A stretch of DNA of 32,982 nucleotides from Chthonomonadaceae bacterium. Lineage in GTDB: Bacteria > Armatimonadota > Chthonomonadetes > Chthonomonadales > Chthonomonadaceae. Each line of letters begins with the position of its first letter. Position 1 is the first letter of the stretch. A program made the position numbers and the translations under genes. The stretch spans positions 1-32,982 of the forward strand of contig DAIDKH010000048.1 of the NCBI GenBank assembly GCA_027450145.1. The letters run 5' to 3'. This document shows positions 421 to 9,052 of this stretch, one piece after another. The notes under the pieces were generated by a model. The model was not told the origin of the DNA. It did no database searches and saw only the letters and a list, made by a program, of their open reading frames with translations.

Positions 421-770
421 ATGCGCGACCCAACCGCGGCGAGCGACCCGTACGCGGGGTATGGCGGGCTTCACGGGTACCATACCGACTGGGAGACGGG
501 TCTGCAGCTTTGCGGCCTGCGGTACTACGACAGCGCGGCGCGCCGGTAGGCATGGGCGAGCCAGTATCGTATGCCGGCGGCGTGAACGTTTAGGAGTACT
601 GTGGCAACGGGCCGGTAGGCAGGAGCGACGCCAGCGGGCTGTGGGGACTGCACTTGTACTTCGCGAAGAAGCGTGCTGGTCACTGTTGCTGTTGCGGTTT
701 AATTCCTTGTGGCCTCGGTTTTGCTTGCGAGGTCTTGCAGACCCAGGTGGTTGGTGCTAATGGAGTTTAA
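421..770 (+). pseudogene. RHS/YD-repeat core remnant, frameshifted and with stop codons
   Basis: Frame 1 from 421 reads 'YGGLHGYHTDWETGLQLCG' and then 'LRYYDSAARR', ending at the stop at 547-549. This matches the end of an RHS core ('G..GYYTD.ETGL...RYYDP..GR'). The expected continuation is found in another frame (pos 570 onward) as 'YAGGVNV*EYCGNGPVG' and 'RSDASGLW', interrupted by TAG at 591-593. It corresponds to the 'GYAGGVNLYEYCGNNPV...DPSGL' that closes RHS cores. That frame then stays open to TAA at 768-770 with no recognisable toxin domain. At least one frameshift and two stops therefore disrupt the core. RHS proteins are large secreted or surface polymorphic-toxin carriers; this copy cannot encode one. 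No start, signal or shell region is present, so it is a C-terminal fragment, perhaps left by recombination. Confidence 0.75.
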
Positions 771-1228: not shown

Positions 1229-2191
1229 TTAACGACCAAAGAAGCGTCCCAATCCCTTTTTTTGAACAGCGTCGTCGCTAGCTTGACGATTTTCGACAGG
1301 TGGGCTTGATTCCACGGCTGGTACCTGGGGTGTTGCGTGAGAGGTGAAGCCCTCTATCGAGACTACCATAACCGTAATGTTGTCACGGCCGCCTCTCGCA
1401 TTTGCAAGGTGGATGAGCTGGCGCGTAACCTCGGAGGGCGTTTCGTGCTGCACTATATGGGCAATTTCCTGATCAGCGACGTGTCCAGTAAGTCCGTCGG
1501 AGCACAGCACCCAGGTGTCTCCCACTTGCGAATTGCACCACTGCATGTCGGGTATTACGGTGGCGGAAGCCCCTACGGACCTGGTGATGACGTTGCGAAA
1601 TGGTGAGAGTTCTGCATCCGAACGACTCATCGCACCAAGGCTTACCTGTTCCTCTACCCAGCTGTGGTCAGTTGTTATTTGCGAAATCTCCCCGTCACGA
1701 ACGAGGTAGGCGCGGCTATCACCCACATGAACTACCAGGACGCGGTTCTCAACAACGGCTAGCGCAACGAGCGTAGTGCCCATACCTCGGCGTTCCGGTA
1801 CCATCTGCGCCAGCGTATGTATTCTGCTGTTAGCTTCTGCAATCGCTTCCTCCATCGCGTGTTCGGCATGCTCGAGTGGGGAGTTGTAATACCCCAGTAT
1901 AAGGTTCTTAAGCAGCATTTCGCTTGCGATCTGCCCAGCCAGCGCACCACCCATTCCATCGGCGACGGCGTATAGCGATCCTCGCTGTGCTAGTATGACC
2001 GGGTCAGTGGGTTCATAGACATCGAATTTATCCTCGTTGTTCTCTCGAACCTGGCCCATGTCTGTTCGCCCGGAGTATTTTATCAGCGAAGTGACTTCTG
2101 CCGGGGCGCCTGTATACGTACGCCATCCCAGTACCAGTTCGTCCCGGTCGAAACCTGCCGTTGGTTCCAGCGACTGGTTTACGTCATTCAT
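1229..2191 (-). CDS. PP2C-family Ser/Thr protein phosphatase
   Basis: This is a metal-dependent (PPM/PP2C) phosphatase of the PrpC/Stp1 type, removing phosphate from Ser/Thr residues in the cytoplasm. The 320-residue protein has a ~35-residue N-terminal leader, then the full catalytic fold: RENNED (49-54), VADGMGG (76-82), GTT (138-140), VGDSRAY (156-162), SDGLT (231-235) and GGRDN (267-271). These include the Asp residues that bind the two Mn/Mg ions. A short Pro/Ser-rich tail ends in a basic GLGRFFGR. It has no signal peptide or membrane helix. ATG 2191 overlaps the stop of the upstream FHA gene by 8 bp and has AGGAG 13 nt upstream; ATG 2203 is also possible but sits only 1 nt from the same AGGAG. 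It is the last gene of the FHA/vWA operon and so is probably the phospho-eraser for phospho-threonine sites read by the FHA proteins. No cognate kinase is in the window. Confidence 0.93.
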   Translation of the reverse strand: MNDVNQSLEPTAGFDRDELVLGWRTYTGAPAEVTSLIKYSGRTDMGQVRENNEDKFDVYEPTDPVILAQRGSLYAVADGMGGALAGQIASEMLLKNLILGYYNSPLEHAEHAMEEAIAEANSRIHTLAQMVPERRGMGTTLVALAVVENRVLVVHVGDSRAYLVRDGEISQITTDHSWVEEQVSLGAMSRSDAELSPFRNVITRSVGASATVIPDMQWCNSQVGDTWVLCSDGLTGHVADQEIAHIVQHETPSEVTRQLIHLANARGGRDNITVMVVSIEGFTSHATPQVPAVESSPPVENRQASDDAVQKKGLGRFFGR

Positions 2192-3170
2192 AGGGCGAGG
2201 CATTCTCCTGAGTAGATTTGCTCGTAGGAACAAACGCCAGTTGATAGGTTGTTTGACCTATTTTAACGGTGTCACCAGTTGCGAGTTCAATGGGTTGGTG
2301 CTCCTGCTGACGTTCACCGTTTACGAAGGTACCATTTCGACTTCCATCGTCCGTCAAGATGACTCTATTCTCGCTTGCGGAGATCGATGCGTGTCGACCC
2401 GATACGTATTGATCGCCAGTGAGTACTACCGTGTTCTCCGGACGTCGACCTAAGGTAACATTTCCTGCCGGAATGAGAATATCGATACCGGGGCCATCCA
2501 TCCAGCGTAAAACAGCTACGGGGTCTGCCTGCGGTTCTGCGGTCACATCCGGAGAGGAGCTATCGTGAACGTCCGTATCTCCTTGTTCAACTAGCGGAGC
2601 AGCGATGGCAATGGTTGGGTCTGTGCTAACTTTTTGTTCAAGAATGGTCAGGTTAAGTTTCCAGTTACCAAATCGAATGTTAGCACCATTGGATAACTCT
2701 ACGGGAGTATTGGTTTCAATGCGCGCATTATCCACGCGTGTACCGTTCGAGCTTCCTAAATCCTCGACGGTGATCCGACCATTCGCTACAGTGATTTGGG
2801 CATGAAGCCTGGATACCGTACCTTCAGCTGTTATAATATCCGCACCCTGGCGCCCAACCGTATTTACGCCCTCACGTAAGGGGTACGTCCTACCGTCGGT
2901 AGTATCCGTTAACTTAGCGGGTATTGCGCGTTCGGTTGTCACTGCAAGGTCAAGGCCCGCTGGTTCCCCGCCTTCGAGTAGGTATCCGCAATCCGAGCAG
3001 TATTTCTCAAGCGCTGGTACGGTAGTTTTGCATACAGGGCATGTTGTAACCGCACCCATCTGAGTTTTCATAGGATCAACTGACAGCATCTGCGTGCTAT
3101 TCAGGTCGGATTCACCTACCATAGTCCGCTCGGATACAGTCGGCATCACTCTTGTAGAATCGTTACTCAT
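2184..3170 (-). CDS. zinc-ribbon protein with two FHA domains
   Basis: A 328-residue soluble protein. Its N-terminal ~40 residues contain four Thr-x-Met/Val motifs (STRVM, RTMVG, STQML, KTQMG). A zinc ribbon follows (Cys44, Cys47, Cys58, Cys61: CPVC...CSDC). FHA domain 1 (about 90-178) has the GR turn at 106-107, SRLH at 120-123 and SSNGT at 140-144. FHA domain 2 (about 228-315) has GR at 241-242, SGRH at 257-260 and SRNGT at 277-281. FHA domains bind phospho-threonine peptides, and both copies keep the usual Arg, Ser, His and Asn-Gly contact positions. ATG 3170 lies 18 bp after the vWA gene stop and its end overlaps the PP2C gene, so the genes are co-transcribed. By analogy with GarA/FHA adaptors, the Thr motifs may be phosphorylated and bound by its own or partner FHA domains; that is inference. 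Confidence 0.9.
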   Translation of the reverse strand: MSNDSTRVMPTVSERTMVGESDLNSTQMLSVDPMKTQMGAVTTCPVCKTTVPALEKYCSDCGYLLEGGEPAGLDLAVTTERAIPAKLTDTTDGRTYPLREGVNTVGRQGADIITAEGTVSRLHAQITVANGRITVEDLGSSNGTRVDNARIETNTPVELSNGANIRFGNWKLNLTILEQKVSTDPTIAIAAPLVEQGDTDVHDSSSPDVTAEPQADPVAVLRWMDGPGIDILIPAGNVTLGRRPENTVVLTGDQYVSGRHASISASENRVILTDDGSRNGTFVNGERQQEHQPIELATGDTVKIGQTTYQLAFVPTSKSTQENASPYE

Positions 3171-3188
3171 TGCGTGGTGATTACCTTT

Positions 3189-4556
3189 CTATTTGCGGGT
3201 ACCCTGGTCTAGTTGCAGAGCAGCGCCCATCAATGTTTTGTCAACGTCCCCGGTGCCACGCTGCAGTCCGGTAATGGCTGCGTCCACCTGCTTAGCCTGG
3301 TCTGTCTGTCCGGCCTGCATGAGGATCGTCCGCGTTTTTTGAAGTTCCGACAGTGCGCCCATTGCCGTGAGCTGTTGCGTTTTAAGGCCCATCATCGTAC
3401 GCTGCAGGTTAATGGAAGCCTGAGCGATTTCTAGTTCGGTGGCGACTGTTCGGTTTACACCGCTCGGCAAGAGTGAGCGGTCATTCGTGAATTGGAACAC
3501 GCAATCGGCCGATAGGGTGGAGGGACGATTGAAAATTACATCGTCGAATGATACCTCAGCTCGCGCCACACGGTACGTTCCTGCTGGATGTTTGTCCAGT
3601 TCTACATCGACTAGAATAGTACGTGTTGTTCCCCGCTCAATATCCGGTACGGCGACCTCAACAGTTCTGGGGCCAAACGTGGGTTGGTGCCCGTACACCT
3701 GACGCATTTGTACCCAACGCGAGAGGTGGAATTTCACCTTGACGTTCTTGGCAACGACATGCATTAGACTCTCTAACTCACGGCGAAATACCTCTGGCAA
3801 CAAATCTGGTCGTTGAATGTAGTAGTAGTTTCCCCCCGAACGGCGGGCGATACCCGACATTAGCTCCTCGCGGTAATCTGGTCCAAAGCCAAGCGCTGTT
3901 ACCGTGATTCCGCGTGCCTTCTGCTCTGCCACCTGCTGCACGATGGATGTGTAATCCTTTAGGCCTACAGTAGGTTCACCGTCTGTAAGAAGCAGTACCC
4001 GGTTTACATAGCCTTGGCTCACCTGCTGTACGGATGCAATTTGCATACAGCCGGCAATTAGTCCGTCATAAAGGTTGGTTGTATTTCCAACGCTCAGTCG
4101 GTGAATATGCTCCTTTACAAGTGCCTTATTTAGCACCTTGCGCGCGGGCATTAACACATCAGCCTGTTCTTCAAACGTGACAATTGACAGGATATCATCT
4201 GGTTCCAGCATATCTACTACGTAATCACATGCACGCTTTACGTACTCTAGCGGTTCACCTTCCATGCTGCCAGACCTGTCGATACACAAGCAAACATTGA
4301 TTGGCGCTCGTCTACCAGCCTGCACATCGCCCGCAGTTAGCACCAGGAGGCCATGGTCTCTGGTAACTTCAGGTGCCATAGCATACTTGTTGCCAGCAAG
4401 AAACTCTAACTGCAAGGTGCTTCCCGCGTTTCCCATTACCGTCTTGAGCGGGCCACCCAGCATCTGAGTGCGCATTCCGCCCATCTGTGTAGCCCCAGCA
4501 TTCATTTGGGTAACGTTGGGGTTTGACGACGGTATTATCTGAGTACGATCTTCCAT
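3189..4556 (-). CDS. von Willebrand factor A domain protein with Thr-x-Met tail
   Basis: A 455-residue protein with no signal peptide or membrane segment. The first ~45 residues are a flexible tail with five Thr motifs at T5, T16, T23, T30 and T39 (RTQII, VTQMN, ATQMG, RTQML, KTVMG). After a beta-rich segment, the vWA domain spans about 85-275 with a complete MIDAS: DRSGS at 93-97, Thr in GNTTN (about 159), and TDGEP at 191-195. It should bind a divalent cation and a ligand protein. The C-terminal half resembles the beta-sandwich and helical extension of YfbK/Ca-activated-channel-like vWA proteins. I chose ATG 4556 because GGAG lies 8 nt upstream; an in-frame GTG at 4598, overlapping the previous stop, lacks a ribosome binding site. 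Its position between FHA genes and the shared tail motif suggest it is a phosphorylated partner of those FHA proteins. Its ligand is unknown. Confidence 0.9.
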   Translation of the reverse strand: MEDRTQIIPSSNPNVTQMNAGATQMGGMRTQMLGGPLKTVMGNAGSTLQLEFLAGNKYAMAPEVTRDHGLLVLTAGDVQAGRRAPINVCLCIDRSGSMEGEPLEYVKRACDYVVDMLEPDDILSIVTFEEQADVLMPARKVLNKALVKEHIHRLSVGNTTNLYDGLIAGCMQIASVQQVSQGYVNRVLLLTDGEPTVGLKDYTSIVQQVAEQKARGITVTALGFGPDYREELMSGIARRSGGNYYYIQRPDLLPEVFRRELESLMHVVAKNVKVKFHLSRWVQMRQVYGHQPTFGPRTVEVAVPDIERGTTRTILVDVELDKHPAGTYRVARAEVSFDDVIFNRPSTLSADCVFQFTNDRSLLPSGVNRTVATELEIAQASINLQRTMMGLKTQQLTAMGALSELQKTRTILMQAGQTDQAKQVDAAITGLQRGTGDVDKTLMGAALQLDQGTRK

Positions 4557-4594
4557 ATGTGATGCTCCATGAAAGGGGACAATGTTAGACTGGT

Positions 4595-6112
4595 TCACTC
4601 GAACCGAAAACTGCTGTTACCGAATTTGATTTCATCTCCAGGGTTCAGCGCAATTGATGTAATGCGGTGCCCGTTCACAAAAGTGCCGTTCGCAGATTGG
4701 CAATCGGTTATCTGGTAATTGCCACCTGATGCTGTGATTTTGGCATGGTTCCGGGAAACAGTCGAATCACCCGAAACGACAATAGTTCGATCTGAGTCGC
4801 GGCCAATCGTAACATTAGGCGAAGTAATGCTAAATACCTGCCCCACGGTTGGGCCGTCTAGCGCAATCAGTCGTCCAGAAGGGATGCTTAATGCAGGATT
4901 AACCGCAACCGCTGGTGCCATGCCGCTGTTTGCAGGAACGGAGTAGCCTGTCAACTGCACGCTTTGAGGCGCAGCTGAGCTAGTCGAAAACTCGACGTTA
5001 ACACCGCCAGGCGTGCATTTACAATTCCCCAGTGCGTCGCGAGGTCCACCGCAAAACGGACAGATGTTGCCGGGTATGGGAGTGGCGCTTAAAGGAGTGC
5101 TGCGCGGAGACTCCGTTGTTGGTTTTCGATTTGCTTTTGCGGTCGCCTTTTCCCGAAAGAGAATATTGTGGTGACCTATAAGAATTATGTCGCCGTCCTG
5201 CAGCAGAGTGCGACCGCCAGGGGCCAGGCGCTGCCCATTTACAGCAGTACCTACCGGTGTGCCGGCATCAACCAGGGTGCGCCGACCCGTTTTGGCGTCC
5301 AGCTGAATAGCAGCATGTTGGATACCAACGGAGGCGTCGCCGAACAAAGGTACCGCACACCGTTCATCACGGCCCAAAAGGTTAATTGGGCGCTCAAGCT
5401 GATAATTTCTACCTTCGTTTCGCCCAACTAGTACCTTGACCCATGCATCCTTGGTGAGCTCCTGAACAAGGCCAATAAAGAGACCCGTTAAAGCTCCAAT
5501 GGCTGTAAAGCCAATGGCACGGCCCGGAGCACCAACGTCAACTGGCCGGTTTGTAGTTGCGACTTGGCTTGCGGCCAGCAGCAAACTTGCAAAGTTAAAA
5601 ATAATGCCACCAAAGAAGCCGCCTAGGAATCCACCAGCTGCACCCTGCCCAATCCTTTTCGATGACATGGTACTAAGTGCCGCACCGGCACCGATACCCA
5701 ATCCCATAGGCGCCCACCCGAAGGCGCGGGCAATTACATTTTGAGCAAATGTTACCGCTGTAGGATTATCTGAACCGCCAAGCGCGTTGAATAGGCTAGA
5801 ACCTAGATGGTAGCCAATATTCCCGAGAATTGTTCCGCCAAAGAAACCAACGAGAGCGCCAAGGGCTGCCTTTTTATGGTCGCCAATTACGAGGCCATCT
5901 ACCGTGCCGAGCAGTAGCCCTGTGATACCCCCCACGCACGCCATTAGAATGTTGACCTGTAATGCGGTCATTGCGTAAAGTACGGGCGGCTGCCCAGGAA
6001 GAGCACTAGGTCGTATAAGCGAGTTATAGTTTATAAGGCTTTCCTGCATGAACCAGCCGATTGCGCCACCCGCGGTGCCGGCGATTATGCTAAGGAGCAT
6101 CCTTGATCTCAT
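4595..6112 (-). CDS. polytopic membrane protein with zinc ribbon and two FHA domains
   Basis: A 505-residue protein. Residues 1-216 are Gly/Ala-rich and contain about five or six hydrophobic helices (near 3-22, 46-75, 82-104, 130-150, 157-182, 197-216) with repeated glycine-zipper patterns such as GGFLGGFFGG. FHA domain 1 (about 223-320) has GR at 247-248, but the usual SRxH reads VGIQH and SNGT reads PVGT, so it has probably lost phospho-threonine binding. A compact zinc ribbon follows (Cys351, 354, 364, 366). FHA domain 2 (about 412-505) is canonical: GR 437-438, SRNH 453-456, SANGT 473-477. ATG 6112 has GAGG 8 nt upstream and starts 10 bp after the preceding stop; a longer frame back to 6202 would overlap that gene and lacks such support. 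It likely places FHA readers at the cytoplasmic membrane face. Confidence 0.87.
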   Translation of the reverse strand: MRSRMLLSIIAGTAGGAIGWFMQESLINYNSLIRPSALPGQPPVLYAMTALQVNILMACVGGITGLLLGTVDGLVIGDHKKAALGALVGFFGGTILGNIGYHLGSSLFNALGGSDNPTAVTFAQNVIARAFGWAPMGLGIGAGAALSTMSSKRIGQGAAGGFLGGFFGGIIFNFASLLLAASQVATTNRPVDVGAPGRAIGFTAIGALTGLFIGLVQELTKDAWVKVLVGRNEGRNYQLERPINLLGRDERCAVPLFGDASVGIQHAAIQLDAKTGRRTLVDAGTPVGTAVNGQRLAPGGRTLLQDGDIILIGHHNILFREKATAKANRKPTTESPRSTPLSATPIPGNICPFCGGPRDALGNCKCTPGGVNVEFSTSSAAPQSVQLTGYSVPANSGMAPAVAVNPALSIPSGRLIALDGPTVGQVFSITSPNVTIGRDSDRTIVVSGDSTVSRNHAKITASGGNYQITDCQSANGTFVNGHRITSIALNPGDEIKFGNSSFRFE

Positions 6113-6122
6113 GCGTTGTACC

Positions 6123-7454
6123 TCACAACTCGAACCTAAATCGGGTATTGCCGATGTGTACTTCATCACCAGGTGTGAGTTGCGTTGCCTCGTTTGGCAC
6201 AAGCCGCGTGCCGTTTACGAATGTGCCATTAGATGACCCATTATCTGTGATATTGTACGTACCACCTGCAGAAGAAATAGTAGCATGCTTCCTGGAAACG
6301 TTGGCGTCTGTTGCGAGGGAAATGTCGCATGAAGCCTCACGCCCAATCTGAATTATTGAACCACCCAGTGGATAACTAGAACCTGAATAGGAGCCTGCTT
6401 TGGCTATTAGCCTGGGTGATGGCGTACCGGAATACGAAGGCGTTGCATTTGACTGCGCACCAGCGAGAGGGTCTACAACCCCCTCTGTTATGGGAATAAT
6501 GGGACTGCGTTCCCGAGGATCGAATGGGCTTACCTGCGGTGTAGAATTGGCGGTATCTGGCGGGGGTAGCACCACGCCCATACCCTCCAGCACCTTCTTT
6601 ATATGACCACGTTGATAGCCAATGTAGAGTCCCCATCCCAGGAGTCCAAGAAGGCCAACGCTTACGACCATAGATACTAGACGGTTAAGTGACGAGCCTA
6701 CCGGAGCGGAAGACCCTGAGGCTGGCGTTGGCACAGGAGTAGTTGTACCCGTCGCTGGTGCTGCGACCGCGGAGCGAAGTGGCACAGTATGCGCATCCGC
6801 CCAGGTGACATAAATCACCGGCCATTGGTAACCATCTGCAGGTGGGTTGGATGGAAGTGTTTGTGTTTGCACAACCGGAGGATCCGTTCCATTCACTATC
6901 TTTACCGTTACGGGATCTGTAAGCGGTACGTTGGTGAACTGGGCAACTCCCGCATCGGCAGGTTTGAGAGTCCATTGTTGTTGATATGTTGGCGGGCCGC
7001 TTGTGAGCGTTACTGTTGCATCCGTAAGGCCTCCCTTATTCTGCACCTCTACCGGGACTAATACGGTCTGCACGAGTGTGAAACTGCTATCACTAACAGT
7101 TGTTACGCTTTTGGTTTGTACAGGTAAGCGGGCTATTTTGCCTGTGCTGCGATCTATTAGCTCTAGTATGGTTCCGCGGGCCGGCATATTGGACGGCAGC
7201 GGGATGGCAGCAACAGGCGCGGCGCTGCTTGCAGCAGGAACGGGGATTGGGACGGTAGCAACGCCAGTTTTTGGAATGAGCCTATAGAGTAGACTGCCTG
7301 TAATTGTCACCCGGATCTGCATGGTGACGGATCGCTGTGGCGAAGTTTGCAGTGCAGGTGCAGAAGATCGCTTGGGTGCCTGCGCCTGAGCAATGCTACC
7401 CATCATTACAAATGAACAGACAGCGACTGCCGCGGCGCGTACTGACCTTAGCAT
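6123..7454 (-). CDS. exported, membrane-anchored protein with cytoplasmic FHA domain
   Basis: A 443-residue protein. It begins with a signal peptide (about 1-24, cleavage after AQA), followed by a ~230-residue Thr/Val/Pro-rich extracytoplasmic part likely made of beta-sandwich modules. A single transmembrane helix (about 259-280) precedes a basic GYQRGHIKK stop-transfer. After a Pro-rich linker, the C-terminal FHA domain (about 348-443) has GR 371-372, SRKH 387-390 and SSNGT 407-411, all intact. The topology puts a sensor or adhesion-like domain outside and a phospho-threonine reader inside. ATG 7454 has GGAGG 4 nt upstream and overlaps the nnrE-nnrD stop by 7 bp. The external domain is not recognised. 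It may link an extracytoplasmic signal to the Thr-phosphorylation module, but no ligand can be named. Confidence 0.87.
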   Translation of the reverse strand: MLRSVRAAAVAVCSFVMMGSIAQAQAPKRSSAPALQTSPQRSVTMQIRVTITGSLLYRLIPKTGVATVPIPVPAASSAAPVAAIPLPSNMPARGTILELIDRSTGKIARLPVQTKSVTTVSDSSFTLVQTVLVPVEVQNKGGLTDATVTLTSGPPTYQQQWTLKPADAGVAQFTNVPLTDPVTVKIVNGTDPPVVQTQTLPSNPPADGYQWPVIYVTWADAHTVPLRSAVAAPATGTTTPVPTPASGSSAPVGSSLNRLVSMVVSVGLLGLLGWGLYIGYQRGHIKKVLEGMGVVLPPPDTANSTPQVSPFDPRERSPIIPITEGVVDPLAGAQSNATPSYSGTPSPRLIAKAGSYSGSSYPLGGSIIQIGREASCDISLATDANVSRKHATISSAGGTYNITDNGSSNGTFVNGTRLVPNEATQLTPGDEVHIGNTRFRFEL

Positions 7455-9052
7455 GTTGCCTCCAATTGGTTAAATGCAGAATGAAGATGCGCGATGATAT
7501 CGCCAGCGATAAGTGATGTTTGTCCGATGTGATTGGCGGCAAGATCACCAGCCAATCCGTGAACTAGGGCGGAGAGAGCAACGACGTCCTCGGGTTGGCA
7601 CAAGATCTCTTTCTGGATGTGCCGGAGTGCTGCACTACGACAAAGCAATGCACCGGTGATGCCAGTAAGCACGTCGCCAGCGCCCCCAGTCGCCATGCCC
7701 GCATTGCCAGTGCCGTTGATTGTAACCGCTCCTTCTGGATTTGCTATAAGTGTATACGCTCCCTTAAGTAACACTATTGCCTGGTATTTGCTTGCGATAG
7801 AGCGAATGGCGCCAACCCGGTCTGCCTGAACCTCCTGTGTAGTACACTGGAGCAATCTGGCGGCTTCAGTAGGGTGCGGCGTCAATACCGCGGTGCGGCC
7901 GGGTTTCCGAAGGACCTCAGGGTCCATTTCTGCTAGGCAGTTCAACGCATCCGCATCTAAAACAATGGAGCACGTCAGGTGATGAAGCATGGCCTCTATT
8001 AACGGCGCTGCGGCGCGCGTAAGACCTGGTCCCATGGCAACGGTGGTGGCGCGGTCGACGTGTTTTAATATTATCGGTAGCGCGTCTAGAGAGACGACCC
8101 CATCACCGTTTTCTGGCAGGCCAATTGTCATCTGTTCGTCCAACTTTACCGCAATAGCTGGCTGGCATGAAACCGGTGTAAGGACCGTAACCAGGCCGAC
8201 GCCGGAGCGTTGCGCTGCGCGAGCAGCCATTGCTGCAGCACCAGCCATTCCTCTGCTGCCGGCTAAAATGAAAAGATGCCCGTAGCTTCCTTTGTTTGTC
8301 TGCTGTCCGCGCCTACGCAGAAGTGGGCTGGCAGTAGCCGGCCAGAATTGAAACATTCCATTGGAGGTTAACCCGTTTAAGCGGCACTTGGTGTCCATCT
8401 CCATACGGTTCCAGTCAAAACCGATGTGAGAAATCGCCAGGCTACCCACATAATCCGAACCGGGTGGGAGGAAGTGGGCTAATTTAGGAGCAGCGAACGT
8501 CACTGTGCTCGTTGCGTGAACCGCCTCTGTCTCAACACTGCCAGTGTTCGTGCAAACACCGCTTGGTATATCCGCGCAGATTACCGGTACACTGCAGCGA
8601 TTTATCGCGTCAATGGCGGCCTGAACATCGTACCTGGGAGTCCCCTGCAATCCAGTACCGAGTAAGGCATCCACAATTATTTCTGCCTGCCGAAGCTCTG
8701 CGTCCCATTCCGTTGGTGCGAGGCCCAACCTGTGAGGTAACCCCATCTGGATGTAAACGTCGGCGAACACAAGCACGTCACCTCTCAGCCGTTCGGGAAG
8801 GAACGGGGAGCATACCGTAACCTCAGCACCCATGTTATGAAGCCACCGCGCGGCCACCCACCCGTCGCCGCCGTTATTACCGCCGCCACAGCAGACGACA
8901 ACTTTCCTGCCTGCGGTGCTGCCGTACCGTTCACCAATGTGCTGGGCTATAGCTGCTCCAGCATTCTCCATGAGCGAAGCACTGGGAATACCGAACTCCT
9001 GAATTGCACGGCGATCCATTTCGCGAACCTGTTCTGCATTAACGACGCGCAA
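7448..9052 (-). CDS. nnrDE: bifunctional NAD(P)HX epimerase / ADP-dependent NAD(P)HX dehydratase
   Basis: This metabolite-repair enzyme converts the hydrated, damaged cofactors NADHX/NADPHX back to NADH/NADPH. The N-terminal YjeF_N domain (about 1-215) epimerises R- to S-NAD(P)HX and carries GGGNNGGDGW (56-65) and DIPSG (161-165). The C-terminal ribokinase-like dehydratase (about 245-530) has KGSYGH (254-259), DADALN (366-371), HPTEAARL (393-400) and the nucleotide motif around GNAGMATGGAGD (449-460). The length of 534 residues is typical of bacterial fusions. The start is TTG 9052, supported by AAGGAG 7 nt upstream. It overlaps the following FHA gene, so it heads the FHA/vWA/PP2C group transcriptionally. 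A functional link is not obvious. Confidence 0.96.
   Translation of the reverse strand: MRVVNAEQVREMDRRAIQEFGIPSASLMENAGAAIAQHIGERYGSTAGRKVVVCCGGGNNGGDGWVAARWLHNMGAEVTVCSPFLPERLRGDVLVFADVYIQMGLPHRLGLAPTEWDAELRQAEIIVDALLGTGLQGTPRYDVQAAIDAINRCSVPVICADIPSGVCTNTGSVETEAVHATSTVTFAAPKLAHFLPPGSDYVGSLAISHIGFDWNRMEMDTKCRLNGLTSNGMFQFWPATASPLLRRRGQQTNKGSYGHLFILAGSRGMAGAAAMAARAAQRSGVGLVTVLTPVSCQPAIAVKLDEQMTIGLPENGDGVVSLDALPIILKHVDRATTVAMGPGLTRAAAPLIEAMLHHLTCSIVLDADALNCLAEMDPEVLRKPGRTAVLTPHPTEAARLLQCTTQEVQADRVGAIRSIASKYQAIVLLKGAYTLIANPEGAVTINGTGNAGMATGGAGDVLTGITGALLCRSAALRHIQKEILCQPEDVVALSALVHGLAGDLAANHIGQTSLIAGDIIAHLHSAFNQLEATC

Follow-up and report, generated by a model that had tools for sequence, protein, structure and literature searches.

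A run of five closely packed minus-strand genes in the genome of a Chthonomonadaceae bacterium raises the question of how a PP2C phosphatase, a vWA protein, and three FHA proteins could form a phospho-threonine (pThr) system with no kinase among them. The window, by which we mean the whole 32,982-nucleotide stretch analyzed (contig C48 of a 4.14-Mb genome in 168 contigs), carries these genes at positions 1229 to 7454. The original prediction, made from the sequence alone, had read them as one membrane-associated unit. All five open reading frames lie at that location, with Pfam matches far above cutoff: E values are 2.8e-17 for PP2C, 3e-37 for the two FHA domains of the soluble protein, 6.7e-19 for the vWA domain, 1.3e-32 for the two FHA domains of the polytopic protein, and 2.4e-20 for the single FHA domain of the signal-peptide protein, making five FHA domains spread over three proteins. 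The tight spacing was confirmed (gaps of no more than 38 bp, plus small overlaps), as were the three FHA topologies: soluble with a zinc ribbon, four or five hydrophobic segments, and a signal peptide with one transmembrane (TM) segment.

Likely start sites were taken from orthologs (position 2203 for PP2C, 4556 for the vWA protein [MEDRTQII], and 6112 for the polytopic FHA protein), and because the starts were set in this way, the large overlap between the frames at 4595 to 6202 and 6123 to 7454 vanishes. Upstream of the five genes lies an NnrD/NnrE gene, the first member of the conserved run described below and probably a housekeeping passenger of the module. It had been left out of the original prediction, as had a sixth gene (the kinase that adjoins PP2C in relatives) and the threonine motif tails.

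Table 1. Features of the phospho-threonine locus and its borders in the window
Feature	Position	Strand	Basis or remark
Rhs-core-like debris (GYHTDWETGLQLCGLRYYDSAARR*), beyond PP2C	421..640	+	Similar stretch on contig C131 upstream of kinase
PP2C phosphatase, Stp1/IreP-type (eraser)	1229..2203	-	Pfam PP2C; NCBIfam NF033484; ORF 1229-2233
Soluble zinc-ribbon and two-FHA protein (Zn-FHA2), ArnA-like layout, N-terminal Thr-motif tail	2184..3170	-	Pfam FHA x2
ArnB-like vWA protein	3189..4556	-	Pfam VWA, AF2 model, fold comparison; ORF reaches 4598
Polytopic membrane protein, FHA1, zinc-ribbon-like linker, FHA2	4595..6112	-	Pfam FHA x2; ORF reaches 6202
Signal-peptide protein with exported beta domain, single TM, and GarA/OdhI-like FHA in the cytosol	6123..7454	-	Pfam FHA x1, AF2 model
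NnrD/NnrE (YjeF) NAD(P)H-hydrate repair enzyme	7448..9052	-	Pfam; adjacent in most relatives

Comparison of the neighborhood in relatives bore out the view of the five genes as one functional unit: gene order is conserved, and a Ser/Thr kinase is linked to PP2C. The recurrent order in Armatimonadota is NnrD/E, FHA (signal peptide-TM), FHA2 (polytopic), vWA, Zn-FHA2, PP2C, Hanks kinase, and it was found in nearly every family sampled (about 50 neighborhoods inspected). Given this recurrence in the phylum, the arrangement is not due to chance. The vWA profile matched in all 17 genomes of the family and in 213 of 291 genomes of the phylum at an E value of 1e-20; matches were strong in 191 of the 291, strong meaning below about 1e-60, a dividing line that was our own choice and was applied to lists that we transcribed. 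Kinase matches were obtained in 187 of the 291 (E value of 1e-95). Both the kinase and a strong vWA match occurred in 177 genomes, vWA alone in 14, the kinase alone in 10, and neither in 90, counts that are inflated by shared ancestry and in which several of the discordant genomes are fragmentary assemblies.

In genomes with a split operon, the components looked for were mostly retained at other loci. The Fimbriimonadia have the set divided three ways (NnrDE-FHA-FHA2-vWA, Zn-FHA2-PP2C, and kinase), with Zn-FHA2 and PP2C together at a third locus in most of the complete Fimbriimonadia checked. Similarly, a strong kinase match was found elsewhere in 18 of 18 genomes checked in which the kinase did not adjoin the retrieved vWA locus; the ARSND string that marks this kinase was matched in 14 of these, the other four loci being incomplete or outside the search pattern. 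A scan of 84,980 species with strict peptide patterns gave matches only in the Armatimonadota group, and the literature searched gave no description of such a module for Armatimonadetes. Two public metagenome-assembled genomes titled Actinomycetota (L033 and L035) also carry the module; their titles look wrong, since contigs that agree with theirs in length and match position belong to the same-phylum genomes G211 and G210. The five window genes are five sixths of a probable phospho-threonine switch kit that is found across most of Armatimonadota.

The missing sixth bears directly on the opening question. A kinase-free module, which the original prediction had described, is ruled out by two observations. 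In relatives retrieved through the vWA protein, a kinase beginning GKYxIIREIARSNDIVYEA comes after PP2C and closes the operon. An ortholog is present in the window genome on the 4-kb contig C131, its only strong match to the module kinase. The accompanying expectation that a Hanks-type writer would be encoded elsewhere in the genome held true, with at least six Hanks kinases found. The C131 gene is cut at its 3' side by the contig end. Upstream of it, C131 has an Rhs-core-like stretch that is also present within the window's first 640 bases, with 80% identity over 178 bp. Rhs-core-like fragments with stops sit at both broken contig ends (window 421-640 and L023:2386-2561), and small plus-strand ORFs adjoining them look like cassette remnants. 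Most simply, debris of an Rhs cassette would lie between PP2C and the kinase in this genome and would have broken the assembly; because no end overlap between C131 and C48 was found, their adjacency is unproven, and the interruption is one that we infer.

The kinases form a Hanks kinase family (L023:3-1676 and orthologs), with an N-terminal kinase domain followed by one TM segment and TPR repeats. The catalytic residues are intact and invariant (VAIK Lys K37, helix-C Glu E60, H133-R-D135, and D153-F-G), and the glycine-rich loop GxGxxG is replaced by an ARSND loop, within an invariant IARSNDIVYEA, in all 41 readable sequences of 44. The module brings to light kinases whose nucleotide loop is invariant yet not of the glycine type. 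A threonine in the activation segment (LTxxGQ) is invariant in seven aligned kinases and recurs in the wider set. The one ortholog tested (L028) falls short of the PASTA kinase cutoff NF033483 (292.6 of 450 bits) and has no PASTA repeats, Pfam giving kinase and TPR only.

Other candidate phospho-threonine loci were seen in the same genome. A second module (L019:4031-9736) comprises a kinase, a small FHA protein, an FHA-TM-trypsin-like protease, PP2C, and an FHA-TM protein. At L020:131-2873, an FhaA-like protein (FhaA_N plus two FHA domains) adjoins a PP2C with a C-terminal extension, and contig C95 (L027:386-4250) carries a separate TerY-P-like triad of vWA, PP2C_2, and kinase-like/WD40 proteins beside rod-shape (Mre) genes.

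The central protein of the set, the vWA protein, looks like the archaeal motility regulator ArnB. Its AF2 model consists of a disordered tail (residues 1 to 43), a vWA domain with an intact MIDAS (DxSxS, T, D), a beta-sandwich, and a C-terminal four-helix bundle. In VIA-align, the full-length model placed the archaeal protein ArnB first (8S05, entry 8s05_B; Z = 35.3, root mean square deviation 3.3, 372 residues), followed by the ArnB paralog vWA2 (5A8J, Z = 31.4); the Catenulispora acidiphila vWA protein 4FX5, which has the same three-domain fold and is likened here by fold alone, ties with 8S05 (Z = 35.1). Foldseek agreed on ArnB (7.6e-26), and the vWA sequence profile reaches both 8S05 (7.8e-13) and 5A8J. 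Many proteins have this three-domain fold, however, and according to the authors of the ArnAB work most of them are not multiply phosphorylated (PMC12852372). In the module, T39 in the tail and T387, T408, and T441 in the helical bundle are invariant in 35 vWA orthologs, down to 42% identity.

The remaining proteins retain most of the residues expected of readers and an eraser. The PP2C scores 245.3 bits against the curated NF033484 cutoff of 230, which places it in the Stp1/IreP family. Zn-FHA2 combines a CxxC...CxxC ribbon with two FHA domains, both containing GR, S-x-x-H, and NG, and its tail carries the motifs RTMVG, STQM, and KTQMG. Across the module, these FHA residues are kept in four of five domains. 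The exception is FHA1 of the polytopic protein, whose FHA2 is intact: its pThr site is degenerate, the Ser/Arg pThr-binding pair being lost across the phylum with the fold signature retained, and it is probably not a pThr reader. The AF2 model of the signal-peptide protein has an ecto beta domain (residues 44 to 224), a TM segment (255 to 282), and an FHA domain (348 to 442), in support of the predicted membrane association with the exported domain out and FHA in. The exported domain may act as the sensory arm that the original prediction proposed, and the five proteins may form one physical assembly.

Two of the soluble components share a short threonine motif. DP[NM][RK]TQM(G) is repeated in the disordered N-terminal tails of the vWA protein and Zn-FHA2 and is found essentially nowhere else examined; the enriched context of the tail threonine is D-P-[ND]-[RK]-T-Q-M-[GI]. 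The pattern [RK]T.[MILV] occurs 91 times in 52 vWA tails versus 4.7 ± 2.1 times in shuffles, a count that shared ancestry again inflates. Per 1,000 residues, [RK]TQM occurs 13.8 times in vWA tails, 6.2 times in Zn-FHA2 tails, 2.0 times in the C-terminal 90 residues of the vWA protein, and 0.01 times in 410 flanking proteins, and it is absent from the kinase, PP2C, and the two membrane FHA proteins. The wording of the tails is lineage specific (DPNRTQ/DPNKTQL in Fimbriimonadia, DPxRTQMG in the window family) and common to the vWA protein and Zn-FHA2 even where their genes are unlinked. Loss of the motif where the kinase is not adjacent, as expected if linkage mattered, was not observed; the motif persists, and in those genomes the kinase is elsewhere. 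A genome-wide strict-pattern search for other RTQMG proteins gave only 4 DNA matches and no convincing further substrate. The tail threonine motifs are probably the on/off switch.

On balance, we lean toward a phospho-threonine switch in which the kinase would write on the tails and the bundle, the FHA proteins would read at the membrane, and PP2C would erase. The single-pass Hanks kinase, with its ARSND-loop kinase domain inside and its TPR domain outside, would be controlled through the outer domain. It would phosphorylate the threonines of the DP-x-[RK]-T-Q-M motifs in the disordered vWA and Zn-FHA2 tails and may also phosphorylate T387, T408, and T441 in the ArnB-like bundle. The intact FHA domains would read the resulting pThr, Zn-FHA2 and the vWA protein would form a pair like ArnA and ArnB, both membrane-bound FHA proteins would bring the vWA hub to the envelope, and the Stp1-type PP2C would reset the system. 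We infer the phosphosites, the protein pairings, the signal, and the output; no output gene was found linked to the module.

The same components could be put together differently. The tails might serve in docking without being phosphorylated, binding for instance to a vWA MIDAS or the zinc ribbon, with the FHA domains reading the activation loop of a kinase that mainly autophosphorylates to recruit the complex. In the GarA/PknB pair, the FHA domain docks on the kinase activation loop, and this precedent, together with the conserved LTxxGQ threonine noted above, favors such an arrangement. We nevertheless consider it unlikely, since threonine is the fixed letter in the repeated core [RK]TQ[MI] and the four threonines of the vWA protein are invariant whereas neighboring tail residues drift.

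A GarA/OdhI-like metabolic control, in which the phosphorylated N-terminal tail of Zn-FHA2 folds back on its own FHA domain and releases a metabolic enzyme, would fit the position of the threonine tail ahead of the FHA domains and the finding that the module FHA domains are closest to GarA/OdhI/FhaB in fold and profile. The vWA protein would then be secondary, but genomes with the Zn-FHA2 gene at another locus still conserve the vWA gene and the tail it encodes, and the NCBIfam cutoffs for OdhI (74.6 of 200 bits) and FhaB (110.4 of 125 bits) are missed, making this quite improbable. Least probable among the readings weighed is a membrane assembly of structural or secretion type (T6SS Fha/PppA/PpkA-like or YscD-like) in which the FHA proteins would be scaffold parts and phosphorylation would set assembly. 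In its favor, in many lineages the vWA protein has no more constant linked partners than the two FHA proteins of the membrane, but no secretion genes were seen beside the module among the neighbors annotated (a non-exhaustive set), the T6SS TagH/Fha profile TIGR03354 (78.2 of 120 bits) and the YscD profile (E value of about 0.001) are both below cutoff, and the Pfam match to Yop-YscD_cpl is no more than an overlap with FHA.

The switch that we prefer can be cast in a more specific form as a bacterial counterpart of ArnAB, near-core in Armatimonadota, whose dedicated Gly-loop-less kinase would write on disordered tails, in a repeated DP-x-[RK]-TQM code, and so create a multivalent pThr hub gathering several FHA proteins at the membrane. 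We hold this version tentatively, as a serious possibility rather than an expectation. Assigning substrates to Ser/Thr kinases is notoriously difficult in bacteria. In this module, because kinase, phosphatase, readers, and candidate substrates form a conserved set and the motif of the candidate substrates predicts sites, writer, reader, and eraser are testable with purified parts.

Among known systems, TerY-P type triads likewise join vWA, PP2C, and kinase classes in one operon, but the window vWA protein has no TerY model among its NCBIfam matches and has FHA partners. The mycobacterial and corynebacterial PknB-PstP-GarA/OdhI/FhaA/FhaB system shares a PknB-like kinase domain, a Stp1/PstP-like PP2C, and FHA readers with an N-terminal threonine tail; the module differs in lacking PASTA repeats, in its vWA hub, in having ARSND for the Gly loop, and in FHA proteins that fall below the OdhI/FhaB cutoffs. 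The closest likeness is to the ArnA-ArnB-ArnC/ArnD-PP2A motility switch of Sulfolobus, where threonines in the helical bundle of ArnB are phosphorylated by the Hanks kinase ArnC and then bound by the FHA domain of the zinc-finger protein ArnA (PMC12852372, PMC6509490). Both have a protein made of vWA, an inserted beta-sandwich, and a C-terminal helical bundle, a zinc-finger and FHA partner (a putative one in the module), a Hanks kinase and a phosphatase, and several threonines available as redundant sites. Unlike the Arn switch, the module is bacterial, with a single operon holding every component in most lineages and no archaellum; its putative partner protein has two FHA domains where ArnA has one, it includes two extra membrane FHA proteins, and its long N-terminal Thr-motif tails have no ArnB counterpart shown. 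The module would work like ArnAB, yet we do not class it as a member, because PP2C replaces PP2A as the eraser and the kinase architecture differs (TM and TPR in the module, OB-TPR-kinase in ArnC). It would carry the logic of the archaeal ArnAB switch over to a phylum of bacteria that has been little studied.
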